A stretch of DNA of 64,000 nt from Cristatella mucedo (Eukaryota > Bryozoa > Phylactolaemata > Cristatellidae), in the NCBI GenBank assembly GCA_009760855.2, contig WPIO01000002.1, forward strand, positions 9,294,001-9,358,000. The letters are read 5' to 3'. Positions 18,653-63,289 of this stretch are shown here, piece after piece. The notes beneath the pieces are model-generated. The model had not been told where the DNA came from. It ran no database searches and worked only from the letters and a program-made list of their open reading frames with translations. A program made the position numbers and the translations under genes. The number at the start of each line of letters is the position of its first letter. The stretch's first letter is position 1.

Positions 18653-18742
<90 letters not shown>

Positions 18743-18804
18743 TAAGAGAGCGACAGAGAGACACAGAGCGACAGAGAAACACAGAGCGACAGAGAGACAC
18801 AGAG

Positions 18805-18866
<62 letters not shown>

Positions 18867-18976
18867 CGACAGAGCGATACAGAGAAAGAGGGACAGAGAG
18901 AGAGACAGAGACACAGAGACAGAGACAGAGAGACAGAGACAGAGAGACAGAGGCAGAGAGACAGAGGCAGAGAGAC

Positions 18977-19012
<36 letters not shown>
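18605..19012. repeat. (AG)n microsatellite with GACAGA/GACACAGA variants, ~400 bp
   Basis: Pure AG runs of up to ~80 bp alternate with acagagcgacagag-type variants. Arg/Glu frames on one strand and Ser/Leu frames on the other are artefacts. It lies 1.1 kb upstream of exon 1. Confidence 0.97.
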
Positions 19013-20077: not shown

Positions 20078-20345
20078 ATGCCAGCCAACAACGGCTGCCC
20101 TAGTGGACTGACATCATCTGCTGCAACCTGCCTGGATAGCAGGCAGACGGCCGGAGATCTGGGCCGAGCAGCTGCCGCCGAACACTCCGGCGACGACTCG
20201 AATGAGCAGCAGCCGCAGCCGCAGCCGCAGCCGCAGCCGCAGCAGGAGGCTCGAGCTGTTGAGCTGGTCAGAGCAGCAGGCGGTGGTGGCTTTGGATTCG
20301 TCGCCGGAGGCCAAAGGCCCACGACCGTGCGCACGGTCGATGCAG
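20078..20345 (+). CDS. FRMPD-like: FRMPD-like exon 1: Gln/Pro-rich N-terminus and start of PDZ domain
   Basis: Residues 1-89 if translation starts at ATG 20078 (G at -3). The frame is also open upstream to an in-frame TAG at 19934, and an acceptor-like tacctgcag ends at 19949, so the exon may begin earlier with a different N-terminus. Residues ~44-56 are alternating Gln/Pro from a CAG-CCG hexamer repeat. Residues ~58-89 form the first PDZ strands: ARAVELVR, then the GFGF loop (residues 71-74), then VAGGQRPTTVRTVDA, close to the FRMPD1/4 PDZ start. The donor is gtaaga at 20346, phase 1, splitting a glycine codon completed by exon 2. Codon use is GC-rich, like the surrounding island. The downstream open frame past the donor does not match the family. 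Confidence 0.8.
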
Positions 20346-22554
20346 GTAAGAAGGCGTACGCCGAAGCCTAGCCATTGCCTGTCAGCGTTCGATTTCGGCC
20401 AAGCAAAAGCCGCTGCATGCCGAATCTTGATTGAGAGTGTGGCGGACGTGCAGCGCTGTCGCACATGCGGCAGGCCAGGCAACGGGGCCGAGCCGAGCGA
20501 TGGTGCGAAACCTGGCAAGGTGAACTGGCTGTCCCCCTTTTTTGACTCAACTGACAAAGAAGCAGCATCAGCAGCTGCCGGCACCGCGAGAAAATCCGAT
20601 TGTCTGCTCAGCCCCAGAAGCAGACCGGAAGCCGAAGGAAAGCAGCTAACATCCAGATCGTGGCTCTCTCAGGGTGTAGCCAAGAGGACAGGGTAGCCAG
20701 TTGAAGCCAGCAGGGGTGAACCTCACCCCTGCCCTTCAGCTTCGCCAAGGTGGCCGCCAGCAATCAAACTGAGAGACTATTCTGAGGGCAGCCCCGATGG
20801 CAAGCCCTTTGATCCTGTCAACTGCTCCTGCAGTCGGCTGCGCTTCCTGGACTTTCGCCTCGATGAGCTGACTCAAAGGGCGCGACCTGCAACACGATGC
20901 GAACCGCAGTGAGCTCTAGCAGCCGACGGCCGATCGGCACTGACATGCCCGCCGTGAAGGCGCTCGGTTTCAAGCCGACAGACTCAACAGACACGGGCCT
21001 GATGCTGAGTCGGCTAGGGCTCACTTGGTATTTATTCGATTTCTGTTGCGAAAGAAGCCATGGAAGGAAGCTGCTCTCTCACGGAGTCAGGGAATGGCGC
21101 TATTTCGACTGGCATCACCGTGCGATAGCCTCCGGACTGCAGCCACGTGGGGTAGGCAGCCAGCTCTGCTGAGCAGGGCAGGAGCAGAGCAGGTTGATGC
21201 AGAGGCAGAGCCTCCTCGGAGAGTTCAGAGTCGCTTTTCAGAGTTGGGTTTCCACTCTTTTTCGCAATGAGCGATCATATTTTAGAGGCATCAAAGACGC
21301 AGCTTTCTTTATGGACAGACCTAGACAGGCCAGTCGAGCCGTTGGCTTCCGGCAAGCCCCTCCAGAGTTGAAGTATAATTTATTTTTTTAGGGCAGATGG
21401 GTCCACAGATGCTTCTGGTCAGCGTGCCTAGGGTGCACACAGCTTCACGCTGTCTCAAAATAAAGACTAAAATTTTTTAGATGCTCTACAGAGTCTTTCG
21501 GGGCCAGGTAATCCGAAAGGTTGAACTATCTATCTATCGCTAGACTTTATATTAATAATAATAATAATAATTCACTTGAAAAAGTGCCCTCAGAGAACTC
21601 AATCTCTCTCTAGGCGCTTTACATTTGCTGTAAAGTGAAACGCAATTGAATGGTAAGTAAAATCATGCTTGAAAAACAAACGAGATGAATAATATGGTTA
21701 GGGGTGACATGCACAGGGTCAGCATGCAAATGTGGTTAGTGGCAGCATGCACAGTGTCAGCACGCATAAGCACATCAAAGACGAATCACAGGGACCCACT
21801 AAATGCTGTCCTAAATAGGTGTGTTTTTAAGTTCCTTTTAAATGTGGTCAGGTCAGGGGATGTTTTGACGCAGGTCGGGAGGGAGTTCCAGGCTTTGGGA
21901 GCATATGAACTAAATGCACGGTCTCCAAAGGATTTAAGGTTTGTACGAGGTATTTCTAGACTGTTGGATTCCGAGAAGCGGGTGGTACGATGCTTGGCCT
22001 GATGGGGTAGTATATCTGACAGATAGGCTGGAGCCATAGAATGAAGGGACCTAAAAGTGAGCGACAAAACTTCGAGTGCTATTAAGAACTGATTCCTGCG
22101 CCCTGCTTGACCACGAGCCTTTTTTGCGTATTGTGATTGCATTCTAGATTTATGATTTATGAATTATGAATTGGATAATGCTAATGCCTCAACCTTCAGA
22201 ACTTCGCTGTCAGATGAGCAGTCGTGTCACTTTGGCATGCCCCCAAATTGCTTGGTTTCTTCAGCAAAGGCTATAAGTGCCTATTGCTCTTGTCTGGAGA
22301 GATCTAATGCTCTATAAAAACACTAGTGAAACAATATGTCACTTTTATTCGACTCTAAGAGAACTTGATCTCTAGTCACGTGAAATACAAATCACTGCAA
22401 GAGAATCAATAGCCAAGGGTTAGTGACGTAAGTGGGATCGAACATGCAGCAGTAGACGAGAAGCATGCCTAGGTCAGCATGTTATCGCAAACGTGAACAT
22501 CAGTGTTATAAAACACAGAGAGATATCCAGCAGAACTATTATTGAGAGGGAATT

Positions 22555-22606
<52 letters not shown>

Positions 22607-28600: not shown

Positions 28601-31600
28601 CTATCCGATCTCGTGCTGCAGCGTCGAAATGGGCATTGCAGTGCACTAGAGTTTCGGCGCCGCTCCTTTTGCTTCCGGATAAGCGGCAGTGTTCGTGGAA
28701 GTAAACTGCTTCGTACTAGCCACGCGGTGGCGGATGGGTGCATAGATGGGCTGAAAACGGCAGGAAAGGACAGCCGTCGATGGCCGTGGCTCTCCTTGTG
28801 CATTTTCAGTAGCCGAATTGCAGTCAACTCCGCTTACAAGAACACGGTCGGACCGGCAAATAGGCATTTTTACATGCGAGTATTCCTCAAATGCGGAGCG
28901 AGACTATATCTACTTGAGTAAATCTGTGACGCAGAACTGCTATTCTTATAAGCAGAGTATTCCTATATCCAATATTCTCATAAAGAACACTACCTGATTT
29001 AACAGCCTCTTTAATATAAGTACAGAAGAGACTCAAAGGCTATCGCCACCGCTTCTTACGCAACGACATCTACTCTCCAACTGCCGACTATGGCACATCT
29101 TTTTCAGCGGTCCTGAACTGCTACTTCTATGCTACTCACTACCTCAACTGCTCTCCTAACTCTGCTATGCTTCCCTCTTTCTCTTTGTTACGTGAGACGA
29201 AGTCTGCTGGCTACCGAATGCGTACCGAAAGCCGCTTAGGCTGTGAGTGCGCTATACAAAACTCTCCTGCGTAACACCCACATGGTCTATATGACTTTGT
29301 GGAGTTACTGACGGAGATACATTACATTGGAGCGGCAAGATAGAATCGCCAATCACAGGATTCGAACCCACGACCTCGATGACGAGGTTGTGGTAAGCAA
29401 CCGCCTTTCCTAGTGAGCTATCACGGCTCGCCGTACGCAGTGTCGACTTTAATACAGAGTGCACAGACTTTGAAAATGGGCGAGCCAGCGAGCCCCGCAC
29501 ACCCCTCGGACCGATCTGAAAGAATAGCGTCACGCTCCCTCTGGCTTTGATTGGATGTCAATGTCATGTCCCCACTTTCGCTCGATATTCCAATGTCGCT
29601 GATTAGATGACGCATCAACGCCGTAACACAATGCTAAACGATAAAGGAGTCGGGCGCTCACCCAGTCACAAACGAATGGCAGCGGTGAATGCGGCACGAA
29701 TCGTGCCCGAGTCGCGATGACTGCGTCCGTCGCGCCCGCGACACTTAAACAAGTGGCCAGTGGAAGACGTTACGACTAGTCAAATGAAGAACATTTGGTG
29801 TCCAGAATATTGTGCATCTATCCAGCGGCGTCGGAGGCTCCTAGTTCAGCTCCTGAGTTCGACACAATTCGTCCTCCTTTCAATCACCCGCCGAGGCCTA
29901 CGACGGCCCGTCGCGCTCGCAATAGAGCTTGATGAAGCCGCAGCATTTTCACAGCATTTCGTCTCGTCTCGAATCTCGCTCAATTAGGCAGTGTGTCAGA
30001 GCACCACGGCCACGCCACCCCAGCAAGCCCGTTCGGGTTCGACCGATATATTCGTTACAATTCTTCTCCCAGACTTCGTGTGCCGACGGCCGCTGATCGA
30101 GCCCTGCGATTGGCGGAGCTTTGAGGGGTTTCGATCGGGCCCAGCTGCCGAGCTGGTCTGAGGCTGTCCGGGACGTGATTTCCGATGCGCCTTTAGCAGG
30201 TCGCCTATCGCCTGACACATCGCCGACGCACTGCCGCCGGCTTTGGTGCACTGCCGAAGAGCTGACGAGGGGACTGCTAAATGTCGCTGCCACCGAAGCT
30301 CCACTTTTTGAGAGCGGCGACGATCGGTGGTAGTTGCTTTCTCAAGCTGGCGACTCAGTTGACTGTCGCCGCGAGCTGCTAAATGAGGCCACTAGCTCCG
30401 TTAGCTCGATAGGTAGCTTCGCCCGAGCTCGCAAGCGTCCGCCGGCTTCGTCACTTACGCCGAGGCCGTGTGCTACGCAATCGGACGGATGGAAATCTGG
30501 CGGGCATCCATCCGATGGGTTTTTGCCAAGTCCCGCTAGTGGGCAAGGCAGAGCATTGGCGGGACGTCGCGGTTCTTGAGGCGTTGTTCCACGCGTCGCT
30601 CGCCGAGCAGTCGGTCAGAGCGCGTCGCCTCGCCTCGCTGTTTCTGATCCGTCGCTCACCAGCGGCGCATACGCATACTTTCTTTTGCATAGGTGGACCC
30701 AGCGACGGTTTACTTCTTCCGGGCGACCAGATTTTCGAAATCAACGGCGTGGACGCGACCAGTTTAGAACAGTCGAGAGTATTCGAACTCATAAGGTATG
30801 ATGACTGGCTGACAGTAAAACCGCACAGCGGCCCATGTAAAGGCGTCAGACTGAGCCGTGCTAGCACCGCAGGGCGTGTCGCCTCACGCGGCAGACAGGG
30901 CGAGCCGTTAGCTCAACTGCTTCTTGCAAAATGTCGAAGGTGTCGTATGCAGCAAAATCTATTTCCGGATTTCGACGGAATTGATCTAGTAATTACCGAG
31001 GCCGTGCGTTTAAGTGAATATTGAGGAGGCCACATGGTTAGCCGCACGGGAAGCCACCTGCTCGCTGTAGCGAGTCGTTACGAGGAGGCAGAGAGTGACG
31101 ACCTTCCCAAGAGCGTGGTCACGTGGTGAGGGCGCACTTCGTAGCGTAAACTTGTTCGCTTTGTTTGTGCTTTTCTCGACGGAGTCATGGAATATTCGTT
31201 CGTATTTCCTGAGCCTTACCGAGCGGGAAAGTTGCCGGTTTATGTGTTGAGCTAGCACCGAGGCATTCGGGACAATACGAGGTTGCAGTTGCTACAACTT
31301 TTCCCTGGACCAATTCAGAGTGGCGTCGCTGGAATTGTGCCCCATACGTCCATAGCTTTGGTTTTATAGAATCGCTTTAATTAAAAATTACTACTAATAA
31401 AAAAACTAACAGTGCTCTAATAGAATTAATTTTTTTCTAGTTCTGCAGATAGATATCACACCGGAAGCGCGTCAGTTGATTAGTGATATCTGCACATTGT
31501 CAGCGCCCATGAGCACGCAAAGGACGAATCGCACGGACCCAGCATCAGCTGTTGGGTACAGGCTGAATTTTAACTTTAACTTTGAATTTTAACTTAACTT

Positions 31601-34600
31601 TGAAATTTTAACTTTGAATTTTAACTTTTTTTTAACTTTACTTTGTCCTTAAGTCAAGAGTGCATCACAGATTGCAGTCAGTACTGATCTCCAGGCTCTG
31701 GAAGCAATAGAACTGACGATTTGTCCAAAGGATTTGCGGTTAATTATAGGCACACCTGAACGATTAGATTCAGAGGAGCTGATGTTGCCAGGGCGAGCCT
31801 GATTAGGAAGGCTGCAGAGTGGTAGGCCGTAGCAAGACAACTGAGGGACGTAAACGTGACTGCTCCTCATTCTCACTTCCTGAGTGAATAGACTCTTCGC
31901 GGCGCCTGTACAAGCAGATCTCAAAGAGCTGCACGAATGCTGCAGTACCACCGGTCACGTGCTACTCGCTCGCTATGCTCTCCGTGAGAAGTGGCGTTCG
32001 GTTTCCTGCCTCTGACTATTTGCCGTTTGGCTGCAACACCATAGAAACACGCTACAAAGGGATCGAATAATGTTTTGTGCTTACTTTCAAGTTGGATGCA
32101 GCCAAAACGGCAGCGAACGACGATTTCTTGCCGCTTTCCGTACTGCTCAGCCTTAGCGCTCGATGAGAAAGTCACGAAAGTCAGTTGCTACCTGTCGGCT
32201 TGCGTACAATCAGAGCAACGAATTGTGCGCGATGCTTCCTGTCATGCAATGGCATCGTGTGGTGGCGCTTTGCGAGATTTTTCCGCACCCCCACCCTAGC
32301 CAGTAAGTCACCGGGCAACTTCAAGCTCTCATACTGTCTAACGTGGTCCTACTCAAGTTAACTATATGAACATATTTTCGTAGCAGCAGGATTTCCTAAA
32401 TGTTATCGCTTGCAGGAGTGGAGCGCAGATAAAACTGGCTGACAATGCGTCTGGCTAGGGTGCCAACCTCTTTGGGTCAAATTCAGAATGACGAGATTCA
32501 GCTCGAAGCAATGGAGGCTTATGAGGAAGCGAGCTCAACTCCCGAGGGAAACTAGACAGTGCCAAGATAACCCGCTTCGAGACGATACAAATTGAAATAC
32601 GGATGTGGCCATATATGCATTTATATTTTGTTACGAAAGCAGCGGTAGGTGAAATATATGTCCAGAGTAGATGCCGGTTTGTTAACCAGCATACAAAAAC
32701 TACAGTCGCTGTCACGGTAATCGTAGGCTTAATGTGATAATGGAGTGGGTGTAGTCAAATGTGTCAGAGAACCTTTATTCATGGGTTAATTTATGTTTCC
32801 TCTTGGTTGAAGTAGCTGGCGTGACTTCTTATAGCAGAGCAGATGTAGCCTCTTTCAACTTTGGTCAATTTATTAAACACAACTGAGTTTCTTACGCGTC
32901 TTTTAGACGCGGTTTCCATATTTCAAACTATGCTACATAGAAAACAAACAGTAGTTAACCATTTACTGGAATTTACTCTCACAGTTTCATAATTGATTTA
33001 AATGAAACATTTGTCATCAGCGCCTCGCTTTTAAGCCCCCCCCCCCGGGCGAGGAGCTTAAGTGATGTGTCAAAGTGATCATTCTAGCCATACAGCCGTA
33101 CATGCCTAGCGTAACCAGCAACGACACAGCTGATGCCACGGTCCAAAAGTGCGTTGCTGCGAGCATTGCGCCAGACGACGGTAATGGCGGTTAAAGAGGC
33201 GAAAGGCAAATACTTTGGAAATTCCACGAATCCATAGCCCGAGGGGCTCCACTTCGCTTTGGCCCTCCCTCCCTCCTCCCTCCCTCCTAAGGCCCTAGCA
33301 GACTGTCAAAGACTGAGCGACTGTCTGACAGAAGAAGCTGCGACGCTTCAAGGTCGGCTGAACGCCACCTTACGGCCACCGCTCTCCCCTGAGCCGCTGC
33401 CTACCCCTTTCTGCAGAGGGCATGTCTCCCGAAGGCGAACGATCTGACGCCACGATCCCTAGATCTTAGTGCCTCTTAGCGCTACATACATGTAAGGCAG
33501 CCCTTTCAGAAGAAGATCGAGGCTCTAAAGGTGCGTCACCGTCTAGTTGTTCTGTAAAAGTCTGATTAGCCTGACAGCCGACGGTAAGGAGCTGCAGACT
33601 TCCTTAGTCTGAATGGGTGGGACGGTTGACACCTTGTAGCGCCCGCCGCTTCCGGGTCGCTTTCGTAGAAAAATAAAATGCCCCGCCTCTCCCGTCCGAC
33701 GTCCGGAAAATATGATGCAGCTCTACGCTAGTCCGCAGAACCACGGGTTCTTCGTGCAAACATTTCGCCTGCTGGCTGATGTTGCAGCAGCACCAGCCGT
33801 ACTTTTTTGTACCCTTTCTCTGCCACACGAGAGCAGCATATAATCTTCTCACACATTCCCCGATTTTCTTTCAGAAACGCGGGTGATGTAATCGCTCTGT
33901 CGGTACGGCATGCTCCACAGGTGAGTTTACCTCCGCTGTGATGCAATCCGAGCGGCAGTCGCAGGTAACACAGCTTTTTCCCAATTCTTGTCGATCCTTG
34001 ACCGTTTTCAGCTAGAGGCGAAGCATTTGCCTAAATGTGTCGTGGTCAAAAAATCAAGGGTAAATACATATGGTCCAAGAGAGTTTGGAAGCCATTATGC
34101 AATAAGAAATGACGGGCCATTTTCTTCGAATAAAATTTAAAGTGAATGACATAGCTCCATTCTCTTTCAATGTCTTAACGAGAAAATAGATAACGAAAAG
34201 AGTTTACAGTCAATGCTCGATTGACAGATCACTCTACTACGCGAGGTTTTACCTCAAGAGGCTCACTGTCTCATAAATATGTTATTGATGTTTGCATACG
34301 CCAAAGCTTTTCCACACCTTAAGAGCATTTGAATCAGCTTTATATGGAGCTTTCATTATGAGAAATTTGAAATTTCTCTCAGCCAATACTTTGCTTCTTC
34401 AAGTCAGTAAAAATGCGCGTTAACAGAAAACGCAGAATGCTTTGGAAGGCATAGCTGCGTGCCGCTGAGGTTCTTCTGCTCCCATCTCCTTAGATTGCAC
34501 ACCCACGGAACAATTCAAGATCCATCAAACACCAGCCTCAAGGAAAAGCCCAAATAATGTAATGACATTCTAGGTTGTGATATAAGAGGCCAAACACAGT

Positions 34601-49600: not shown

Positions 49601-52600
49601 TGCTATCCTGCCTGGTTCATAGTGATTTTTATGTCCAATAGACTCAGCTATATGTCGGAAGTCGCGATCGATGTGTGCTCTGTTTTCCAACTACCACCAG
49701 CTGCTAGGCAGTTGGTTGTCCCGAGAGTGCAGAGTGTTGTGTGTACAGCTGCTTTCTGTTGAAAAAAAGCAGCTCAACAGAAGCCTGACCAGGGAACAGC
49801 ACGTGCCCACAAGATGGGTTTGTCTTGCCCCATACCGAGTTGAAGCGCTGGCACATCACCAGTAGTGCTAGATTCAGCAGCATCAGATGGAGCGGCTTGA
49901 CAGGCATACAGCTTCTCCCGGTCGTAAAATTAGCTCTCGGTCAGTTACACCGACGTCATCACACAGCCGAGAGGCACATAAAGCATCACTCTCAGCTTTC
50001 CAGGCTTATAGACAGACCGAGCCCTGTCCAAGCTTTTCACCACTTAGAATCGAGGATCCAGCGTTTGCTTTTGGGCGGATGCCGGCCTTTGCATTAATAC
50101 CATTTCACACCTTCCCTAGGTATGCGATCTCGTGACCAAGTCATGAGCAAGCTCTCGCACGAGTACAACGCCTACACAAACGCGAACGTGCAAGCTTGGG
50201 TATCAATGTTCACCTGCGTCGACCATCATGCGTGAGCTTATTTTGTTCTGAAATATTTATTTGGCTAAGCAAATGTCACAGATCCCATTATGATTACGTG
50301 CAACGATTACGTTAACCGTAGCCCATGCACGAGGCTTGTCACTCCATTCTTAGGCCACGGTCATTACTTGGGCAGTAGTTCTGCTATGTTAACTAGCTCA
50401 GGCTCTTGCCTGGTAACTTTCATTTTGTCTAAGTCGTCATCGTGAGCCCTCGTTGACTGCCACTTCTCGATTGGCTCCTTTCACTATCTCACAGAGACCG
50501 GCTCAACCTTTTTAGCATGGAGTTGAGGAATTAATACTGATACTTGAGAGCACAGGCAGGGGCCAAGGGCGAACGGTGAAAGGCGAAGGGCGAAGGGCTG
50601 CGTTTTAGTAGCTTCCATTGGGCCAACACGGATGGGAGTGCCGACCGGATCGCCCATGTGAAACACTCTTCCTGCTACGATAGCCTGCTTTTGCAGGCAT
50701 GTGACAGCCTGCTTCTGCAAGCCTGTGATAGCCTGCTTCTGCATACTCAGGCTTAGCCCCATGCCAAAAGCCCTGGTAGGTAGGTGATCATGTGCCCCAA
50801 TCCATTGAGGTGAAAGTCGTCAGTTAAGCTGACACAGTTCTGGCACTCAGCAAGAGCTGGGTATCCGGGCTTGACTTAAGGTGTATACGTGCTGCTGCTC
50901 CTGCCTCCATGATGGCTGTTGGTAAAGGCTTTCCTGCCCAAGTTTGTTAAAGCATGAAATTGGAGAATCACCAAGATTCGTTGCTTGATTGCAAGTGCTT
51001 TCGACTGTAACCATATCTCTTCCAACTGATCACAGAGCAGCATCTAAGTACACCATGGGCATGAGTACCAGAGGCCACATTCACTTTCCTGTTTAACAGT
51101 TTAAATTATCCTTGCGAGATCTGTTATTCAGATTTCGGAACATTAGAGGCTCAAGCAAGCACAGCCGCAGTAATGCTTTGCATTCTTAATCTACATCGAT
51201 CGATTGCAGGCAGGCTGGTATGGTCCTTCAACTAGAAAAGAGCTCACTTGAGGCGATATTTAGATAGGCATTCCAATAATTGAACTTTGGTAAGCTTAAT
51301 GCACCACAGGAAGTGAGACCGATTCCCCATTACCCTGTATTTTGAGAATCACATAATAATAATGATAATAATACTAAGTCTTTTGCATAGCACTCTGGTT
51401 AAAGTTAATATGCAAAAAGGCCTGTAGGTTAGCTGGAGCCCCAGCCCCAGCCAAACTCGAACAATCATTCACATGTAAGGATATAGATTCCAGTCTGAAC
51501 CGCTACCTAAAGCCAAGGGCCAAACCAAAATGTAGGTTGGTTGCTCTAGAAGTAGCCAAAGGATTGATTTGAGAGCGAACCACTTCCAATTAAATCAGTA
51601 TATGAATTGCTGAATAAGATTGAAAGGCTTGAGATTCACTGGTATCCATGATGCCATTGGAATCCCGGTATGTCAGCTGTGTGTCATATAATTGCAATTA
51701 TATGTCAAAGAGAAAACTGGCTTCATTGGTTTTTGCATGCCTGAGTGCACTGATCTCACAATGCACGGCTGTTCAATTTTGCACCTGAGAATGCACTTGA
51801 CCGCATCTTCATTCGAATAAAGGATTGCATTCGAGCTTTGACAAGCCAGTCAGTACCTGCCTGCTAGCAGTCGAGATCAGAAGTAATCAGCAGAATCAAT
51901 TTTGCCCTTTGCTAGCAAGGAGTTTGGCCTGAGGTCGTTCTTGGCACCCGGTTTGGTGTCCAGCATGCAGCCAAAGGTTCTGCACCGCAAGCTGGACGGC
52001 TACCTGAAGCTCAATCGTGGTCTAGCTGCCCCTGGACAGAAACGGGTGACGGCTCTCCAGGCGAGGATGCACTATATGCAGATCGCAGCCGGCCTGCCGA
52101 CGTTCTGCGGGAGACGCTTCGCCACTCGATCGTATGAGGTAACTAAGCAAGCACGAGCAGATTTGCTTGGTAACTCCTGATTAGCTGCAGCCAGCTTTTC
52201 TGTACATGCCAGTCTTTCCTGGTCGCAGCTGCTGATCACCCACTACAGTAATAATAACAACACTTTAGTTCATTAGCATGCAGAACTATGTCTCTATGCT
52301 GGTGCTTTACAGATGCTGCATAGCTCGAGCCGATATCCTTGGTCGGTACGGCCAGGCGCCTCACCTCGAAAGGCCAGTCTGATGCGGTCGGCCGTAGGAA
52401 TAGCCTGTTACTTTCGCAGAGGTCCAGCCGTCGCTTTGCTTTGAGAAGGGAGCGTTTGGCTCTGACTTCGAGAACTTCAAGAGGCTGTTCTTGTGAGGTC
52501 GATTACAGTTACCTTGCAACGGTTGCCCTGGTCACTCGAGGTCTATCTACGGATAGGCTGAGGCTGCTGAGACAGTTGAGTTAGCATAACTTGCTTTCTC

Positions 52601-55600: not shown

Positions 55601-58600
55601 ACAAGCCGCCGGCTCTACTGGTATCCTATTTACTCTGACTTGCCAGTTGCCTTCTCGTACCATGTAGTCTTCGCAGCAGCGTGTCTGGTTCTTTCGAGGC
55701 GGTTTCATAGAGCTTGATCAGCTCGGTGGCACCGCGGTTGAATACAAACTCCTGACGTGCTTTATTGTAGGGCCAGAGACTTGTGGATATGCTGCTACTG
55801 GTGGGGCCCAACTGTGGAATCAGCCGATTAGTAGACGCTCTGAACGATTCAGTAAGTATACAGAGCCTGTATTCAGGTCAGACCACCATTTTTTTGGATT
55901 TGCTGCTTGGCTGTTGTTAGAGTAGGATCACTAGGTGCCGATGAGCAAAATTACCACACACATGCAGGACCCATTTTAACGAGGAAGGAAACTTCTTATT
56001 TCTCAGATGCCTGCTGACAAGGCGCATCCGATAGGGTGGGATCGTGGGAAAACACGCCAGGCCGTATGCTTACCAAATCATCTCCCGAGTTCGGACTTGC
56101 AGACATGCCATGGTTAAGCGATGAATCTGTAGCAGAGTTGAAAGGCCCCAAATATACGATTTATCAATTTTGAGAGATGATGGCTAGTAGTACAGGGCCA
56201 AGACAGGTGCAATAAAAAGAGACCCGTAACCGATATACTAGTGATAACAAAATTACCTAGATGGTTTGATCTTCAAGAACAGCTCCTTAGCAATGCTGGG
56301 CACCTGAGTTGATTTATCAGATGACCTAGTTACAGCGACTGTCAGGATTGATCATTCCAGTAATAAGGTCAGCAAATGCTCCGTGCTGAGTGACCAGTCT
56401 TGAGCCAAGTCACAGTTTGGGTGTAGATCTAGAGTTTGCTGGAAGGCGATTTCACATTTCAGCACATATCTCCAGCAATAACAAGCCTTCGGATATTGTA
56501 CACGAAAAGAAAAATAGTGCTGCTTTCTTTGCATAATCGCATTGGAAATTGAATACCAAGGTGTCTCTGAAGGACTGTGTGGAGTGTAATAGTCCTCAGA
56601 AACCACAATCAGATGACCTCTCTTTTTGGACATCAAATTCAATCAGAAATACTCTGCATAATAAAAAATATTTGTATTAGCTGGATACTCAAACTTATAT
56701 CAGTAAGCTCCAAGTCCTATAATACGAATAATGTGGTTGCACTTTACGATCCAAGCAACTGACTCAACCCTGCGATAGACCATCATGTAGTGCTCTGTTC
56801 AAGTAAGGGGATCAAGCCGCTCAGGCTCTTCTGCTTCTACATAAATGGATCAGTTTAACTTTGCTTATTTGCTGCGTTTTAATCTAGCTATTAATCTGTC
56901 GTCTGCTCTCTATAGAAGATACCTGCGTCGTAATGCTAGCTCGGCTTGCTATGGCTGCACCTCGGCAATAACCATTGTAGCCGCCGAAGTGCTGAAAGAG
57001 AGCGCTCGAAATGGCTAGGCAGATGCGGTATTGCCCTGTCGACCATGCTTGGCACAGTACATATCTTTTGATTTTCTTTTGACAAACTCTTTTCGGCTGG
57101 CGGTCTCACTCGTTCGCATAATCTTAGTGACAAACTAACTGTAACGTAATGTCTTGCTCCAGTCCGTCGGAGCAATTCGAGCTCCTGACTCGAAGATACT
57201 ATTGTTAGGGCGAGCGAGCTGATCACACATACAAATGCCCTAGGCACTAGAAAAGTAACAGCACGATTACTCGTGCCTCGGTGAGTGGAATAATAGCTCA
57301 GCTCTTCATGCGGCGTCACTTCGAAGTGATGTCAATGTCATTAAAATTCACCTAAAATCTGCTATACTCTCTTAACGCCCACTCACAGTCCGTGTTTTCT
57401 CAAAGCGATCAAGTCACAAGGCATCTGAATGTCTTGGACTGACCATCCCAGAGGTATCTTTGCCGGCTGACGACAATTCACCCCGGCAAAAGAGCTTAAT
57501 TCCGAGAGCTTAAATCACGCGGCCCGTGGGTCGCGAAAAAGCCACTTAATAGAATTATGCCTGATTGACATCTGTGACGCTTTTCGGAATGCTTTCGGTT
57601 TGCTAGCTGAATGCAGGACAGTGGATAATACTAGCTGACACCAATAGGTTTATAGTCACCCAGTGGTAGAGCTTGGACTCGAGGAAATAATAGAATGCAA
57701 CTAGACCTATTTAACTATTCAGAAATAATCGTTCTCACGCTGTCAGCATTCGTAATGGTAGGCGAACTTAGTTGCAAGAGAATGACAGTAGCTGAGGCTT
57801 GTTCAGATGATGCAATGGGAGAGATCTTGCTCGCAGAATGGGATTGCAGTAACGCAAGACTTTCAGCATCAGACACGTCCAGAGAAGAGTCCGCGCGTAC
57901 CGGTCTTAGGTACGAATGATAATAGACAACGAAAAACTTGATTCAAGGCAAAAGGAAACTCCTTGGTGTGGGACGTGGGGCGCTTTGCATTGGAACGAAT
58001 GGACGGCACGTGGATTATTTAGCTAAGTCAATCGATGGAGAATTTACATATTCAGAAAATGAGACTTCAGTGTGACAGCTGTGAGCAAATTTTGACCGAT
58101 AAAACCGAGATTGTGTAGCTACTACAGGAGCTCAATCTAATAATACTAGCTGACATATATATAATAATACTCACTTTTAGGTCTCTTCATTCTATGGCTG
58201 CAGCCTATCTCTCCGACATACTCCCCCCATCAGGCCAAGCAGCGTACCACCCGCTTTTCGGAATCCAACAGTCTAGAAATACCTCGTACAAACCTCAAAT
58301 CCTATGGAGACCATGCATTTAGTTCGTATGCTCCCAAAGCCTGGTACTCCCTCCCGACCTGCGTCAGAACATCCCCTGACCTGACCCCATTTAAAAGGAA
58401 CTTAAAAACACACCTATTTAGGACAGCATTTAGTGGGTCCCTGTGATTCGTCCTTCACGTGCTTATGCGACCTGACACTGTGCATGCTGCCACTAATCGC
58501 ATTTGCATGCTGACTCTGTGCATGTCACCCCTCACCATGTTATTCATTTTGTTTGTTTTTCAAGCACGATTTTACTTACCATTTAATTGCATTTCCCTTT

Positions 58601-61600
58601 GCAGCAAATGTAAAGCGCCTAGCAAGAGATTGAGTTCTCTGGGGGTGCTTTATCAAGCACATTATTATTATTATTATTTTGTAATCTATCGCTGACTCAT
58701 CGTCTAACCGCTTAGACTTGGTGACAACTAATGCTTGCAAAGTCAAACCAATGCTATGCTTTATTCATCACTTGAAGACATACGCAGGGAGAGAAGTGTT
58801 GCTATTCACTGATTTTATTGCCGAGTTAGTGTACAAGAGTGGGCGTGACGGCTCAAAAGGTAATGTGCTAGCTCTCCGCGACCGAGGTCGTGGGTTCGAA
58901 TCCTTTAGTAGGTAATTACTCATTCCTACCTGCAAGCAGTGGATATTTTCGTTTAAGCTCGCCTGCCTCTATTAAAATGAGACAGTTAAATTAGCTAATT
59001 AATAGTTTATTTTCCTTATTTAATTTAATGGACACGGTTTGTTTGCTATAGTTGCAAGCACGCGATTAGCCAAAACTTTCTACACAAAGCCGAGCTAAAT
59101 TTGCAGGGAGGCTCAAAAAGAAACCTTTAATGTTTTATTCCTTTCCAATACGGGAAAAAGTTTTTTTAGTACCTAGAAATATATTGAGTTCTCCGAGGGC
59201 GCAAAACAAATGTATATTTTTTTGATATTTTTACTATTATTACTTTATTTATTGTGGTGGGGATTGTGAGAGAATCTATCACCCAAGAAGGAATAGATGA
59301 TAGGCTAGCAACAAGCATAGATCTGGCTCACTGCACTAATAATATCCGAATTCAATGTCTGCTAAACACGATTAAAATGCCTTTTTCGGCATTGCATAGT
59401 CCTCGAGAAGATGCCTGCACCTGTACGAACGATTACGACAAACGGCGAGCCCATCAGTAGTAACAACGTCTTTGGTGTGGCTGTCAATAGCATTGGATCG
59501 CTTCGTCTATTCTTTGCAATTTGTACGATCTGCTGCAGTTCCAGAAAATCGTGAGCCTAGAGGATGTCACGGATTTGAGAATCTGCGAGCAGCCTGGCGA
59601 TGAACATGAAGGGATTTGGATGAAACGAATCGAATTAAGAAGCGCTCACAATACCGAGGTACGGTTTACTGGACTCGCGCGAGTTGCTAGGCCTTGGCTG
59701 ATGAAGGACGCGTGTAACCTTGAGTATCTGTCCGATAGACTTTTCTAAGCTGTGGATACGGACTTTTTGCGTTAAAGTAGGTGGGCTCTTTTTTGCAGCA
59801 CTGTTCCGCGATTGTCTGCTTACTTGCGTGCATCGGTGCTCTACTTACAAGTATCGAAAGCTGTGTGCCAGGGCTCGGCCTTCATTGGTATATGTCGAGT
59901 TTCGGGCAGGACTGGCGCTGTGACCTGTGATGTGTCAGAGGCACAAGGATATTTATCGCAGAGAGCTATTCGTCGCGACAGTAACAATAGCTGGACGTCC
60001 TTAGCCGAACCGTAGCAAAAGTGCGACGGCTGGATGTGTATGGTATGTGGTGCTCATCGAAGCAAATGCTTTGGAGTAAACTTTGTTCATTTGGGAAGGA
60101 GCGTGCAGCCCTACTTTCCAAATGTTAAGCTGAGGGGGGACAGGGAAATGGGCCTTTGGCCCATGCACTCCGATGAATTCCGATCACGCTCATTTAAGAT
60201 TCGTACCTCCTGTTATTACTCCTCGCCGTGGGCCTACACAAACATACTGTCCATCTTTCGTGGATCTATTGAGTTCAGAGAAATGCAAGAGGATAGCATT
60301 AGCTTAAAATGCCACTGCTCTAAACTGTGACAGGAGTATTTTATCATTAGTATAAACTTTGCCATCCTATTAACATTCCCGTGATTGGGTGTTCGATCTC
60401 TTCTTGGCTGTTAAGTCTTCTGCTTCAGTGCTAGGCTTTGCATCAACTCGGATGTCAGCAAGGTCGTTATCACTTCTATTAAATTTTCGCAGGATTGAGG
60501 AGATTACAAAGTGCTCTAGCATAGCCTGTAGCACGGCGCCGGGCGAAGATGGCAGAAATGTTAGCTCGAGGCCAATGAATAGATCTGGGCATCCACGTAA
60601 TGAAAAACTAAACGACTGTCGTCTGAGCACCAATGGCTATTGACTCATTGAAGGATGGACGATTTGTAGCCCTAGCTGACTTGCATCGACCGAAAGCTTC
60701 TCCTTTTTTTTCTGCATTTGCCATTCCATCGAAGGATTCGCTGACCCTCGTAGATAAACAGCATGCAACCACGCTTCATTAAAGTCCGAAACAATATCAG
60801 TCTCCAATTTTCTATTATTCACTGATTAGTAATGAGTACGAGCTCGCAGCCGACCCAGTGTTTGGCACGAGTATTTTTGGGTGTCAATGGTTTCCTTGTC
60901 GCATAGGTGGGGTCTAGTGAGCAGCAGGTACAAGTGCTGATCCCCCCCTAAAACGCCACGCTCCATCGTGGTAATGTTATTGACACTGGTCTCAAAGATA
61001 CGCTTGCAGTGCTGCAACACCACGACTCATCATTAAACGATGCCGGGACAACGAAAAAAGCTAACTCGTTGTGCTTAAGTGGAATTGAACCTACTGTCAG
61101 CGCCTTGCTAGCTTAGAAGCCCTCGGTGAAAGAGACCAAGTAAAACGCATGTTCTCCTGTTACGCAGGTCACTTGCCTATACATGAAAGACGCATCGGCC
61201 CACGATTTCTGCGCGTTCGTGGACGGCTATAGAGCAGCTCTGACCGGAAAGGCAGTCTCGAGGAGCCCATCTCTAAGGCAGCCGAGCAGGGAATGCTTGA
61301 TGAGCCCAGCAGACGTGAGCTCGATCGTTTCCTGCAGCGAATGCGACGAGCTTATCGTGCCACCAGTGGATTACGACGAGGTAGGTTGCTCAAGGCCAGC
61401 CATGTTCACAGTTTAACTTAGCCGATTGCCAGCTCATAAACTTGCTCTTGGAGTAAGCGAGTGTGTGCATTGAAATGCCCATTGAGAACGCGTCGTCGAG
61501 CAGTTTCCAGCTCGGTGCATCACCTGCTCTGCTCAGTCCAGTATTTTACTAAGCCGCTACGTGAGCCAGCTGGCTGTGCAGCCGCAATTCCTCGACGCTC

Positions 61601-63289
61601 CTTCCATCCATCATCACGTCGTGCGGGCAATAAATCATCGCCTGATAGCTTCGATCCTGTAAGATGCTATGACTAACTCGGCTTTTAGTTCGCGATTACC
61701 TCTGGGACGTGAGCGGCTTAAAGCATGGTAGTCTCAGGAGTCCGTACACACCAGATAATCCCAGAAGCTTGAGAAGGGCGTCGTGCTGTAGGGATGCTTG
61801 GCCAGGTTGGGGGTACTCGAATAGCACCTGACATGTCTGTCACATGCAGACTCCAGTAAAATTAATATTGATTGATCTTTCAATTTGAGAGCCGGCGAAA
61901 TGCCTTGATTGATTAAATATGCGATTAGTTGCCCTTTTCTCTGAAAGTTATTAGCATTATGGCAGGATTACTGTGCAAAAATTTAAGAAATTACGTAACT
62001 GGAAATGTTTTTCGGATCGACTGTACTTTGCTCTTCCTTTGGCTAAATCCTTAGAAAAATGATGGTGTGATGGACTTGTGCATTCAATACGCTCGGCATA
62101 AGAAATCTCCATCTCTCCGTAGAGGACCTATATCCTAGAGCTCTAGATCTCTTAAATTTCGTTCTCCACTTCCTCGCGTCTCCTTCGGTTATTAATCTCT
62201 TAAATTTCGTTCTCCACTTCTTCGCGTCTCCTTCGGTTATTTCTTTCCCCTTTAGCATCAAGAACTGACTATTTTGCCGCTTTAAAATCAGGCACCATTC
62301 GTAGGCCACATTCCCACACAGGCTTCATCAATTTATACGAGTACTTTGCATGCGACCAAGTAAGTAAAAATTCTGTAGCTCGTAATTCATGGAGTACGTA
62401 AAGTAAACTGCCTTTGTTAGTGGCAGAGGCTTGAGTTGCTAGTCACTGGAAGTTACCTGTTTGTGAACCATGAATGATGAGCCGTGACGGCACGCTAGGT
62501 AAGGTGGTTGGTTTTCATAACCTCGGTCTCGAGGTCAGGGGTTCGAATCTTTCGGTGGGCAATCCTTTATTTCGGCTGCAAGCGGTAATGATAGCCGTAA
62601 AGGCTCTTCTATCGCTATAAAAAAAGAGGTTGTTAAATCAGCTATCATTATTATTATTGCCATTATTATTATTATTATGCATATTACATCCGCGTTCGGA
62701 GAGGCGTGTGCAACTTAGGCAGAGGTAACTCTTGTTAGAGTAGACGCGAAGATAAGATCGCATATAAACGTATAATGATTCGCTGAAGAACGAACGGGTG
62801 TGCCAACAACCAACCAGTCACGAGGGAGACTATTCGCGCCTTAATTTTCGCCTCAATTTTTAGCCAAAAGCATTTCCTGCATCTGCACAGTTCTCTAAGA
62901 ACGAGCAACCAGCGTTAGCAATGACCGTTGAGTGTCAGCTAGCACATATGCAGAGGCGCGCTGAAACTCCTTTGAACCGGAAGAGCTATCGCATGTCATT
63001 CAGAGGCGTCAACTCAAGCTTCTCCTACAGGCCACTACAGATAGCGATGGTGAAGCCGGTGAAAATGCTCATGCTGTCAACAGCGTCCTGTCGGAGGCGT
63101 TCGACGACCTCGACGATGGGCTACTGGGGGCTGACACCACAGAAGACTGCAATGAACCAACGGCTCATTTGACCAGCGGCAGTAAGCTAGTAGGCGATTC
63201 GTCGAGTAACCCGTCTAAAAGTCAACTGCTACTGGATGTTGAGACTGGCCGGGCGCAGTTGGTGGGAAGTGCACCTGACACTCCCTCTG
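20078..63289 (+). CDS. FRMPD-like: FRMPD1/3/4-like FERM and PDZ domain scaffold gene, 12 coding exons, 3' incomplete
   Basis: Joined coding exons: 20078-20345, 30693-30814, 36187-36321, 37229-37333, 40813-40944, 41050-41157, 49011-49153, 51916-52138, 55771-55851, 59539-59658, 61168-61380, 63031-63289. The sum is 1909 nt, 636 codons plus one base, open at the 3' end. All eleven junctions keep frame and every intron is GT-AG. What is seen: a PDZ domain with a GFGF carboxylate-binding loop (residues ~58-130), a linker with RVRF (~155), and a FERM domain (~188-505) carrying family signatures such as LKVYLENRQT, APKDPYDLLRQDPLAFDYLY, CCNDLV, TALQARMHYM and LLVGPNCGIS. This order and these blocks are those of vertebrate FRMPD1/3/4. 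Family knowledge: cortical or synaptic scaffolds. The FRMPD4-type WW domain is not seen in the exons found, but upstream exons may be missing. The start at 20078 is the best visible ATG, not proven. Most introns are phase 0; the exceptions are exon 1/2 (phase 1), exon 7/8 (phase 2) and after exon 12 (phase 1). Confidence 0.9.
20205..20246 (+). repeat. (CAGCCG)n coding repeat in exon 1
   Basis: Hexamer repeat encoding alternating Gln-Pro; likely length-polymorphic and in frame. Confidence 0.9.
20346..21540. other. Intron 1, first part
   Basis: GC-moderate DNA with open frames (for example one running to 20694) but no similarity. Confidence 0.4.
21548..22078 (-). mobile_element. LINE-A copy, reverse strand
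   Basis: Starts with the complement of an ATT tail, then a perfect hairpin block (gtgccctcagagaactcaat), 3' UTR, and the ORF end read on the minus strand: KSFGDRAFSSYAPKAWNSLP, then TSPDLTTFKRNLKTHLFRTA. The reading frame is intact over this stretch, so it is one of the younger copies. Confidence 0.9.
22340..22505 (-). mobile_element. SINE-2 copy, diverged
   Basis: Reverse strand: B-box-like tgttcgatccc (near 22438), then a body and a 3' end like the LINE-A hairpin (gagatcaagttctcttagag, 22355-22375). Confidence 0.5.
22555..22605. repeat. (AG)n microsatellite
   Basis: About 24 AG units. Confidence 0.97.
22910..23155. mobile_element. LINE-B copy with 5' inversion (twin-primed)
   Basis: 22910-22976 is the LINE-B 3' end on the minus strand (complement of the ACATT tail, then the final ~65 bases). 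From 22977 the sequence switches to the plus strand and matches LINE-B about 500 bases further 5' (HLSPLLKELGWMPVDQRIQ region, equivalent to 4682-4845). The part between the two matches is missing. Confidence 0.85.
23457..23600 (-). mobile_element. SINE-2 copy
   Basis: Reverse strand: A-box-like cacagttgttagagcacag, B-box ggcttcgagccctgc, then a LINE-A-type tail (gtaaagcgctcggatagag, agttctcttaggacgcc). Confidence 0.75.
23735..23765. repeat. (GGA)n microsatellite
   Basis: About 9 GGA units. Confidence 0.95.
23816..23925 (+). repeat. Unclassified ~105-bp repeat, copy 1
   Basis: Highly similar to 25290-25395 (shared blocks include gtagactggagtccctcgag and aagttgcactcgtg). No coding or transposon signature. 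Its neighbours do not match. Confidence 0.8.
24527..24667 (-). mobile_element. SINE-2 copy, best defined
   Basis: Reverse strand order: gctgatttagccaagtggtt (A-box TAGCCAAGTGGT), gctcgcctcaatc, B-box ggctcgagccccgtgg, short linker, then gtgcctgaatagagatttaa and gttctcgcagggc, which is the LINE-A 3' hairpin. About 140 bp in all. Confidence 0.85.
25290..25395 (+). repeat. Unclassified ~105-bp repeat, copy 2
   Basis: Direct-orientation partner of 23816-23925. Confidence 0.8.
25490..25700 (+). mobile_element. LINE-A 3' end, diverged
   Basis: Recognisable by the order of ORF-end remnants, tgcatgctgac-like 3' UTR, then gtgcatagaaagagatttac and an ATT-type end near 25690. Old copy. Confidence 0.65.
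26042..26425 (-). mobile_element. LINE-A copy, diverged, reverse strand
   Basis: Hairpin-like start (gcgtttgtagcgtcccaagg) at 26060-26090, then 3' UTR and the ORF-end region (gttccacgccgtagaagctt and gggtctccaaa), reversed. Confidence 0.65.
26426..28049. other. Intron 1, no supported feature
   Basis: No exon or repeat family recognised. Confidence 0.4.
28050..28700. promoter_or_regulatory. GC- and CpG-rich island D inside intron 1
   Basis: CpG-rich block in the large first intron (20346-30692) of the FRMPD-like gene. Frames are open on both strands by composition; none has domain similarity. It could be an alternative promoter giving a shorter product. Confidence 0.25.
28990..29432 (-). mobile_element. 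SINE-1 copy split by a LINE-B insertion
   Basis: The left piece 28990-29056 (ctgatttaacagcctcttta ... ccaccgctt) and the right piece 29333-29432 (ggcaagatagaatcgcc, B-box complement gattcgaaccc, tRNA-like end) together make one SINE-1. The break falls inside the conserved ccgcttgcagtggc block. Confidence 0.9.
29052..29332 (+). mobile_element. LINE-B 3' fragment nested in SINE-1
   Basis: Nearly identical to 4967-5240: cttacgcaacgacatctact through gactttgtggagttactgac and an ACATT tail. Severely 5'-truncated, and younger than the SINE it interrupts. Confidence 0.92.
29433..29829. other. No supported gene
   Basis: Spacer in intron 1. Confidence 0.4.
29830..30660. promoter_or_regulatory. GC-rich island E just upstream of exon 2
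   Basis: Moderately GC- and CpG-rich stretch running up to the exon 2 acceptor. No coding similarity. As it abuts the PDZ core exon, part may be ordinary intron with raised GC. Confidence 0.2.
30693..30814 (+). CDS. FRMPD-like: FRMPD-like exon 2: core of PDZ domain
   Basis: Residues 90-130. The acceptor is ttcttttgcatag at 30692; the first two bases complete the split Gly to give GGPSDGLLLPGDQIFEINGV, the PDZ core (betaC, alphaA, betaD), followed by DATSLEQSRVFELIR, the alphaB helix that borders the ligand groove. FRMPD1/4 have the same GGPSEGKLIPGDQI pattern. The 3' end is less sure. The donor gtaaaa at 30815 gives phase 0 and fits exon 3. A donor at 30796 (gtatga) gives phase 2 and does not fit. 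The open frame running on to 31021 is intron read-through. The last strand reads YDDWLT and is shorter than the vertebrate one, so a small extra exon before exon 3 is possible. Confidence 0.85.
31475..31960 (-). mobile_element. LINE-A copy with AT-rich TTTTAACTTTGAA expansion
   Basis: The reverse strand encodes a diverged ORF end (minus-strand IINRKSFGQIV, RAWRSVLTAI near 31670-31750). The 3' UTR part (31490-31550) is followed at 31565-31645 by a local array of taactttgaatttt units that is not in other copies. Confidence 0.7.
31961..34720. other. Intron 2, no supported gene
   Basis: Contains a C13 homopolymer at 33034-33046 and a ccctccctcc run at 33262-33288. No exon recognised. Confidence 0.45.
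34723..35222 (-). mobile_element. LINE-B copy, reverse strand
   Basis: Starts at the complement of the tail (aatgtatctccgtctgtaac), continues through the minus-strand ORF end (LWNSLP-equivalent degraded) to about the VEQRIQ region near 35215. Several frame breaks. Confidence 0.88.
35935..36060 (+). mobile_element. SINE-2 copy just upstream of exon 3
   Basis: A-box region tttggccattgggtaaggtg followed by ctcgccttta, degraded B-box, then gacggagattaggctctgcc and a cttagggtgcc 3' end. It ends about 125 bases before the exon 3 acceptor. Confidence 0.7.
36187..36321 (+). CDS. FRMPD-like: FRMPD-like exon 3: PDZ-FERM linker with RVRF motif
   Basis: Residues 131-175, 45 codons, phase 0 on both sides. 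The acceptor is ttcattgcag ending at 36186; the donor is gtaagt at 36322. The product is basic and Ser-rich, then SPSRVRFSEAVEEVDGDG. It aligns to the segment of FRMPD1 that reads KVRFSEEV between PDZ and FERM, which is one of the few conserved linker blocks. A long antisense reading frame crosses this exon and is only a shadow. Confidence 0.9.
37229..37333 (+). CDS. FRMPD-like: FRMPD-like exon 4: start of FERM F1 (ubiquitin-like) lobe
   Basis: Residues 176-210, 35 codons, phase 0 both sides. The acceptor is gtttttgcag ending at 37228. The sequence ILKVYLENRQTRSFQFDDYV matches the first F1 strands of FRMPD proteins (LKVYLENGQTKSF). The donor is gttcgt at 37334, a weak site because +3 to +6 are not GTAAG-like. 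It is chosen because reading on reaches a stop without family similarity, and because exon 5 continues the frame and the alignment directly. Confidence 0.88.
37334..40440. other. Intron 4, mostly featureless, with AT-rich block
   Basis: 38365-38495 is very AT-rich (TAATATTA-type inverted repeats). A 9-bp inverted repeat tctgctctg/cagagcaga lies at about 38610-38637. No exon recognised. Confidence 0.45.
40442..40713 (+). repeat. Two-copy tandem duplication, ~134-bp unit
   Basis: Copies at 40442-40575 and 40576-40713 share long blocks (agtcaagttgcagaacttaa, atgcggccaag, agtatttcaaat) with scattered substitutions. In intron 4, ending 100 bases before exon 5. Confidence 0.92.
40813..40944 (+). 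CDS. FRMPD-like: FRMPD-like exon 5: FERM F1 lobe, middle
   Basis: Residues 211-254, 44 codons, phase 0 both sides. The acceptor is cttccgtgcatag ending at 40812; the donor is gtagag at 40945. The product begins DVKQLLLQKLEITATEHFGL, matching the F1 helix and following strand of the family (KDV...LQEKL...EHFSL). It then runs through a variable stretch to EEIITE. A two-copy tandem repeat lies in the intron about 100 bases upstream. Confidence 0.9.
41050..41157 (+). CDS. FRMPD-like: FRMPD-like exon 6: F1/F2 junction of FERM
   Basis: Residues 255-290, 36 codons, phase 0 both sides. The intron before it is only 105 bases, the shortest in the gene. The acceptor is catctttcag ending at 41049; the donor is gtatgc at 41158. 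The product includes CSLRILYAPKDPYDLLRQDP and LAFDYLYKQ, matching the very conserved family block that ends F1 and opens F2 ([23 protein letters not shown] in FRMPD1). This is one of the strongest family identifiers in the window. Confidence 0.95.
41715..41812 (+). mobile_element. LINE-A 3' terminus
   Basis: gcaaatgtaaagcgcataga, agagattgagttc, gagggcgctttatcaagtg and an (ATT)n tail of about 8 units. Only the last ~100 bases are present. Confidence 0.85.
42087..42200 (+). repeat. 19-bp minisatellite, 6 copies
   Basis: Unit gatcctagagtaggcaaac with G/A alternation at position 1. Units lie at 42087, 42106, 42125, 42144, 42163 and 42182; only the first (most 5') is diverged. Confidence 0.96.
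42201..43030. other. Intron 6, no clear feature
   Basis: A-rich DNA. The last part may already belong to the LINE-A copy that follows. Confidence 0.4.
43040..44735 (+). mobile_element. LINE-A copy, longest, with reverse transcriptase core
   Basis: Broken ORF2-like coding. Linker block CDDLADCFSIFFVNKI lies near 43195. RT finger blocks follow around 43400-43560. Then come AYHSTESALLRVSKDLL (43665-43715), palm motif A VLLDLLAAFDTID (43745-43785), GVPQSSVL (near 43930) and the catalytic box FHFYADG (near 44020-44040) with the second Asp lost. It continues to the SLDGHI / YFHL region, then has a deletion straight to CGPEAWNSL (near 44390), 3' UTR, perfect hairpin (44660-44705) and (ATT)n tail. 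CR1/L2-type by motifs. Inactive. Confidence 0.9.
44736..49010. other. Intron 6, second half, unidentified
   Basis: Over 4 kb with evenly spread small open frames but no domain I recognise on either strand. Contains short ctgctgccg-type repeats near 46860-46890. May hold an old degraded transposon. Confidence 0.35.
49011..49153 (+). CDS. FRMPD-like: FRMPD-like exon 7: FERM F2 (acyl-CoA-binding-protein-like) lobe
   Basis: Residues 291-337 plus two bases of codon 338. The acceptor is cgctgcttgcag ending at 49010; the donor is gtaagt at 49154, phase 2. The product starts CCNDLVDERL, directly continuing LYKQ of exon 6 as in FRMPD1 (YVQSCNDVVQERF). It goes on with helices VALRLVSLYMLEHALV and ends PPNKVTAKKV. 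It sits alone, 7.85 kb after exon 6 and 2.76 kb before exon 8. Confidence 0.93.
49154..51915. other. Intron 7
   Basis: No exon recognised. Contains the 24-bp tandem repeat at 50679-50750 and a short (ATA)n run at 51355-51375. Confidence 0.45.
50679..50750 (+). repeat. 24-bp tandem repeat, 3 copies
   Basis: Units at 50679, 50703 and 50727, consensus gatagcctgcttctgcaggc plus four bases. Confidence 0.92.
51916..52138 (+). CDS. FRMPD-like: FRMPD-like exon 8: end of FERM F2 and start of F3
   Basis: Residues 338-412. The acceptor is ccctttgctag ending at 51915; its first base completes codon 338 (GAC, Asp), then KEFGLRSFLAPGLV. Vertebrate FRMPD1 has EKEWGLETFLPSAVL here. Next come the helices HRKLDGYLKLN and TALQARMHYMQ, the F2 signature, and FCGRRFATRSYE entering F3. 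The end is phase 0 at a gtaact donor (52139). An alternative acceptor after cagcaag would break the frame. Confidence 0.93.
52243..52370 (-). mobile_element. SINE-2 copy just downstream of exon 8
   Basis: Reverse strand: gaggcgcctggccgtac, B-box-like ggctcgagctatg, then LINE-A-like ctgtaaagcaccagcataga and an ATT-type end at 52243-52255. Confidence 0.65.
52690..53885 (+). mobile_element. LINE-A copy with RT palm to 3' end
   Basis: Starts at the FHFYA region (52765-52785, catalytic box lost), runs through the thumb region with a 125-codon open stretch (52970-53347: SLDDRISSTIKNAYFQL, CLDFCNPLLAGP, NFAARLVCREH, LLADLRWLPVK), a stop, then DRAFSPYGPKAWNS and the LNRHLF end (53510-53630). The 3' UTR, hairpin and (ATT)n tail follow. 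The best copy for the C-terminal consensus. Confidence 0.92.
54300..54455 (+). mobile_element. LINE-A or SINE-2 3' end
   Basis: gcaaagtgccacgaaagagt, cagttcccctagggcgcc and an (ATT)n tail at 54424-54450. The upstream part is too diverged to say which family. Confidence 0.7.
54456..55770. other. Intron 8, no supported feature
   Basis: Open frames up to 123 codons (54679-55050) have hydrophobic, non-conserved products. No exon beyond the F3 exon at 55771. Confidence 0.45.
55771..55851 (+). CDS. FRMPD-like: FRMPD-like exon 9: FERM F3 (PH-like) strand exon, 27 codons
   Basis: Residues 413-439, 81 nt, too short for a simple open-frame scan. The acceptor is gctttattgtag ending at 55770; the donor is a strong gtaagt at 55852. 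Both ends are phase 0, matching exons 8 and 10. It encodes GQRLVDMLLLVGPNCGISRL and then VDALNDS. The block LLVGPxxGIS is almost invariant in the F3 lobe of FRMPD proteins (TLLVGPRYGISHV). Without this exon the FERM F3 lobe would lack its first strands. Confidence 0.9.
55852..58170. other. Intron 9, no supported feature
   Basis: Nothing recognised on either strand. Confidence 0.45.
58172..58678 (+). mobile_element. LINE-A copy, 5'-truncated
   Basis: ORF end (SLRPAWYSLPTCVRTSPDL-like, frameshifted), 3' UTR, almost perfect hairpin at 58612-58652 (aaagcgcc ... ggtgcttt) and (ATT)n tail. Confidence 0.92.
58838..59005 (+). mobile_element. SINE-1 copy
   Basis: tgggcgtgacggctcaaaag, B-box gtgggttcgaatcctttag (58888-58906), body ctgcaagcagtgg, end gagacagttaaattagct. 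Confidence 0.82.
59170..59250 (+). mobile_element. LINE-A/SINE-2 3' terminus, degraded
   Basis: tagaaatatattgagttctc, cgagggcgcaaaacaaatg and an AT-rich tail. About 290 bases upstream of exon 10. Confidence 0.6.
59539..59658 (+). CDS. FRMPD-like: FRMPD-like exon 10: FERM F3 lobe, middle
   Basis: Residues 440-479, 40 codons, phase 0 both sides. The acceptor is gatctgctgcag ending at 59538; a second AG at 59544 would also work in theory but shifts frame. The donor is gtacgg at 59659. The product begins FQKIVSLEDVTDLRICE and ends WMKRIELRSAHNTE. It aligns to FRMPD1 [26 protein letters not shown]. It carries an insert rich in Asp/Glu and Gly (PGDEHEG) in the loop between strands. Confidence 0.87.
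59659..61167. other. Intron 10, no supported feature
   Basis: A weak tRNA-like string on the reverse strand near 61080-61140 (ggttcaattccac complement) is not good enough to call a SINE. Confidence 0.4.
61168..61380 (+). CDS. FRMPD-like: FRMPD-like exon 11: F3 C-terminal helix and post-FERM segment
   Basis: Residues 480-550, 71 codons, phase 0 both sides. The acceptor is ctcctgttacgcag ending at 61167; the donor is gtaggt at 61381. It starts VTCLYMKDASAHDFCAFVDG and continues YRAALTG, the last F3 strand and the long closing helix (in FRMPD1, [24 protein letters not shown]). The remainder is Ser/Pro-rich with SRSPSLRQPSRE, then a Cys pair (SCSECDE) and PPVDYDE. It looks flexible and matches no domain I recognise. 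Confidence 0.92.
62147..62242. repeat. 48-bp tandem duplication, 2 copies
   Basis: Copies at 62147-62194 and 62195-62242 differ by about two bases. The unit is a multiple of three and stays open on the minus strand, but there is no evidence of a gene. Confidence 0.93.
62478..62690 (+). mobile_element. SINE-1 copy with (ATT)n tail
   Basis: tgagccgtgacggcacgcta, A-box region, B-box ggggttcgaatctttc (62536-62552), body gcaagcggtaatgatagcc, end gaggttgttaaatcagct, then (ATT)n. In intron 11. Confidence 0.9.
63031..63289 (+). CDS. FRMPD-like: FRMPD-like exon 12: acidic C-terminal tail, continues beyond the window
   Basis: Residues 551-636 plus one base. The acceptor is cttctcctacag ending at 63030; the donor is gtaagg at 63290, phase 1. 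The product begins ATTDSDGEAGENAHAVNSVL, followed by SEAFDDLDDGLLGADTTEDC, and is rich in Asp, Glu, Ser and Gly, so probably disordered. Vertebrate FRMPD proteins also have long unstructured tails. There is no family block here. The call rests on splice-site quality, phase match with exon 11, and an open frame of 86 codons with even codon use. An overlapping reading frame upstream of the acceptor is not used. Confidence 0.75.

Follow-up and report, generated by a model that had tools for sequence, protein, structure and literature searches.

A thirteen-exon model of an FRMPD-like PDZ-FERM gene

The 64,000-nucleotide stretch of DNA analyzed here (the window) carries on its plus strand a gene of the FRMPD family, and in this study we determined its exon structure, the order of its domains and the family to which it belongs. 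We conclude that the window almost certainly holds the 5' part of an animal FRMPD1/3/4 gene, encoding a scaffold with one PDZ domain, then a FERM domain that probably has all three lobes and, judging from its relatives, a tail encoded beyond the window.

Results

Between positions 20078 and 63289, 13 exons (Table 1) join into a single frame that runs through 645 codons without a stop; all borders are GT-AG, the phases are consistent at all 12 junctions and the introns measure 105 to 10347 nt. To rebuild the gene we combined open segments with splice sites, and the choice of exons was made partly by eye with FRMPD sequences as a guide. Ranked among 3462 GT sites, the 13 donors average the 97th percentile; the 12 acceptors average the 96th among 4509 AG sites. 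These values are biased because the sites were picked with the consensus in mind. Compared by span, exon number and size range, exon 1 begins and the last donor lies (after 63289) where the first-pass annotation had placed the ends of the gene, and the GT-AG borders and agreeing phases that it described also stand. Its count of 12 exons does not, and its size range of 81 to 268 nt fits exons 10 and 1 at the extremes and excludes the 46-nt exon 3. With the borders used here, exon 3 is required because exon 2 leaves in phase 2 and exon 4 enters in phase 0; it is the sole phase-compatible candidate in that gap at our stricter limits and the first of two at lax limits. Since 46 nt falls below the stated minimum of 81, we infer that the 12-exon reading lacked it. 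Exon 1 has an open frame and the donor CAG/gtaaga; its start codon is a guess from splice signals and the frame, which is open back to 19937. At the other end, reading through exon 13 meets a stop at 63301, so it could be the final exon here. The gene probably leaves the window after the exon 13 donor, in which case the window would contain the first, 5' part of the gene with the remainder 3' beyond it. A candidate for exon 10 at 55105-55224, whose splice sites scored badly (-1.2 for the acceptor and -3.8 for the donor), was dropped in favor of the tabulated exon.

Table 1. Exons of the rebuilt gene model (positions in the window)
Exon	Position	Strand	Length (nt)	Content	Basis
1	20078..20345	+	268	First PDZ strands with the GFGF loop, after a putative start and a Q/P repeat	Donor found by 2edv spliced alignment
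2	30693..30795	+		Mid PDZ	Both borders found by 2edv spliced alignment
3	33875..33920	+	46	Last PDZ strand	Acceptor found blind by 2edv alignment, which ends before the donor
4	36187..36321	+		Basic linker KSPSRVRFSEAV	Phases and borders
5	37229..37333	+		Start of FERM lobe F1 (LKVYLENRQTRSFQF)	Aligns to 7byj; donor found blind
6	40813..40944	+		Remainder of F1	Both borders found blind
7	41050..41157	+		PKDPYDLLRQDPLAFDYLYKQ, start of F2	Both borders found blind
8	49011..49153	+		F2	Both borders found blind
9	51916..52138	+		End of F2	Both borders found blind
10	55771..55851	+	81	Start of F3 (MLLLVGPNCGIS)	Acceptor found blind
11	59539..59658	+		F3 strands	Alternative start 59545 has a better splice score
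12	61168..61380	+		Last F3 helix and linker	Alone without Pfam match
13	63031..63289	+		Acidic Ser-rich stretch 3' of FERM	Phases and splice sites; donor CTG/gtaagg

The joined protein matches Pfam PDZ at 1.3e-8 (35.5 bits, cut-off 23.2) and Pfam FERM_M at 1e-7, above the cut-off, and both the model and Pfam place the PDZ domain before the FERM domain in exon order. When eight exon pieces were scanned singly, three gave some Pfam match and five gave none up to E=10; exon 2 alone reached PDZ at 1e-4 (23.1 bits, against the cut-off of 23.2), and exon 9 alone reached FERM_M at 0.04, under the cut-off. The basic linker encoded by exon 4 may resemble the FRMPD linker. Simple pattern scans of both strands of the window revealed no WW-like motif; a second pattern set, applied to the plus strand of the first 30.7 kb, returned three bare GW[EKRD] matches (28135, 28298 and 30487), which we judged not to be WW.

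Against the PDB, the PDZ domain matched FRMPD1 (2edv) at 2.6e-8, fourth of 41 distinct sequences, with the PDZ chains of PSD-95 and InaD-like proteins scoring slightly higher. Because these chains are similarly strong, the PDZ domain by itself cannot name the family, and the assignment depends on FERM together with the order of the domains. Among the FERM families with solved chains, 12 distinct sequences reached E=10, led by FRMPD4 (7byj) over 320 residues (4.6e-50, 173.8 bits); no FRMPD3 chain was among the PDB matches listed. A better match to another FERM family was sought in the PDB and none was found, with FAK1 and PYK2 coming next at 5.7e-4 (22.2 bits). FRMPD4 thus stands ahead of the next FERM family by 46 orders in E-value, and the FRMPD-like PDZ-FERM identity that had been proposed for this gene is supported.

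Since the choice of exons had been partly guided in this way, we ran blind spliced protein-to-genome alignments with hand-set splice scores, giving as reference only the FERM stretch of 7byj or the PDZ stretch of 2edv. On the plus strand, the 7byj stretch scored 369.3 in eight exons, compared with a maximum of 66.9 for 60 shuffled references (mean 53.1, SD 5.8) and 52.0 for the reverse complement. Its path reproduced exons 6 to 9 exactly at both borders, the donor of exon 5 and the acceptor of exon 10, the latter with a donor at 55876 instead of 55851; two of its eight exons (61313-61380 and 63041-63133) deviate from the model. The 2edv stretch scored 105.1, above all 60 of its shuffles (maximum 55.2) and the reverse complement (34.0), and its path, unaided, met exon 2 at both ends as well as the exon 1 donor and the exon 3 acceptor. 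In-order spliced matches to FRMPD proteins, which the first-pass annotation had named as supporting evidence, were recovered for the FRMPD1 PDZ domain and for the FRMPD4 FERM exons through exon 10, and failed to appear for exons 11 and 12. Its view that automatic annotation would probably miss the gene looks doubtful, because a single FRMPD4 sequence was enough to locate the core exons of the FERM domain without other help.

The third FERM lobe (exons 10 to 12) is less firmly placed. Exons 11 and 12 were chosen by eye, and the blind 7byj alignment over the window took others in their stead: its third-lobe path ran through 61313-61380, which shares only the donor with exon 12, and then 63041-63133. 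When the third lobe alone was aligned, the spliced path changed as the intron penalty was lowered through four values, and some of the paths had very short exons; 57837-57909 was used in two of the four runs and 59539-59658 in none, and both borders of exon 10 were met at the two lowest penalties. The scores of these runs (71.4 at penalty 14, 94.8 at penalty 10) nevertheless exceeded the maxima of 60 shuffles per penalty (59.5 and 67.5, respectively), so a third-lobe signal exists and the exons are not fixed by it. Under the limits applied, the gap between exons 10 and 13 holds 10 open candidates of phase 0-0. Among these, 61168-61380 ranks top by similarity plus splice score, tying in similarity with 61168-61314. 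On similarity, 59545-59658 comes fourth and 59539-59658 fifth, after 57656-57757; adding the splice scores puts them third and fifth. The product of exons 10 to 12 scored 61 against the third lobe, compared with a maximum of 42 in 500 shuffles, with exon 10 contributing much of it. We regard exon 12 as likely correct and exon 11 as probably correct.

The window also contains several repeats. Interspersed copies of one family lie at 2059-2820, 13585-13778, 17789-18171, 43579-44730, 53006-53888 and 58224-58680 on the plus strand and at 3181-3847, 16524-16669 and 21546-22082 in the other orientation. Its frames presumably resemble the end of a LINE. Nine of the 133 open reading frames of at least 90 aa, plus one of 66 aa, all ten of them outside the exons, were compared with Pfam, and the single match was a weak one to reverse transcriptase (0.0068, under the cut-off) in a frame of this family at 43579-43893. 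A second interspersed family, about 89-96% alike among its longer pairs, occurs at 4682-5238, 22978-23137 and 29053-29328 (plus) and at 34717-35169 (other orientation). A 410-nt AG-rich tandem tract (18607-19016) lies upstream of exon 1, a 133-nt unit is present in 1.9 copies with 88% matches just upstream of exon 6 (40444-40695), and the 7.9-kb intron that separates exon 7 from exon 8 contains a 19-nt tandem repeat of 7.2 copies (42068-42204). At 6744-7017 there is an AT-rich inverted repeat whose 137-nt arms adjoin without a gap and are 97% complementary. The region 12001-16000 is G+C-rich (56%), and long frames overlap there on each strand; of these, 12288-13214 was compared with Pfam and had no match up to 0.1. 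The window gave no match to Rfam and none in ARAGORN with the bacterial code, and a search of viral contigs with 237 FERM residues gave two pattern-matching stretches and no confirmed relatives.

Discussion

The FAK1 and PYK2 matches, together with a Pfam FERM_C_FAK1 match at 0.018 that lies under its cut-off, would be expected if a FERM gene of the FAK/PYK2 type stood beside an unrelated PDZ gene. FRMPD4, however, leads FAK/PYK2 by about 150 bits, and the PDZ and FERM exons connect in phase via exons 3 to 5, so we consider such a pair of neighbors highly improbable. FERM and PDZ domains are also found together in FRMPD2 and PTPN13, where the FERM domain comes before the PDZ domain. A protein of that type is extremely improbable here, as the window gene has its PDZ domain ahead of FERM; the order given for FRMPD4 in PMC10965980 is N-terminal WW, PDZ, FERM.

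There is likewise very little chance that we are dealing with a pseudogene, a decayed or duplicated copy of an FRMPD-type gene. Divergence is high, with 112 of 306 aligned FERM residues identical to FRMPD4, and several interspersed repeats lie within the introns. Yet the 645 codons run without a stop between GT-AG borders with agreeing phases, although these features themselves guided the choice of exons, and the G+C content is 56% in exons versus 47% in introns and 62% at third codon positions. The gene is real yet ordinary: an intron-rich animal gene with a fly counterpart already known.

By analogy with its relatives, we infer that the gene is expressed, and a scaffold role would be the natural one for its product. 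In the most likely mechanism, the PDZ domain would bind partner proteins by their C-terminal tails, FERM would dock on receptors in the membrane and adaptors would be recruited by the window protein's own tail, the coding part of which lies outside the window; the protein would in this way tie receptors to signaling complexes beneath the membrane. In Preso/FRMPD4, group I mGluRs are bound by the FERM domain, and Homer- and PDZ-binding motifs are present at the C terminus (PMC10965980); residues 895-938 of FRMPD1 bind Gpsm2/LGN (PMC9581579).

The window protein resembles FRMPD4/Preso in a collinear FERM domain and in having PDZ before FERM, and differs from it in showing no WW-like motif by simple patterns and in having its tail beyond the window. 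Its PDZ domain aligns without gaps to that of FRMPD1 over 69 residues, 25 of which are identical. In ungapped alignments, the His of the PSD-95 groove (HEQAA) corresponds to Gln in the window protein and to Trp in FRMPD1. That the gene is a fast-evolving FRMPD orthologue in which WW was lost and the PDZ groove changed is a tentative and rather unlikely reading; if it were true, the scaffold may have been re-aimed at different partners.

The sequence fits an invertebrate counterpart of FRMPD. According to a preprint (PMC13060437), domain identity to human reaches up to 89.7% in zebrafish and up to 58.9% in the fly; the FERM and PDZ identities of the window protein are well below these figures, which speaks against a vertebrate, in measures that are not strictly comparable. 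Among the papers listed by a literature search on flatworm, tick and oyster, none contained the phrase "FERM and PDZ domain". The same preprint names Drosophila ngh (CG42788) as an invertebrate FRMPD4 orthologue and reports that it modulates hearing. With an invertebrate FRMPD orthologue in print, the window gene adds a member to a known family, one with a diverged, long-intron gene structure. The family has been linked to human, mouse, zebrafish and fly hearing (PMC13060437, a preprint) and to synapses (PMC10965980). As an outgroup, the gene could help to date the FRMPD1/3/4 split; apart from this and the family context, it is routine annotation.
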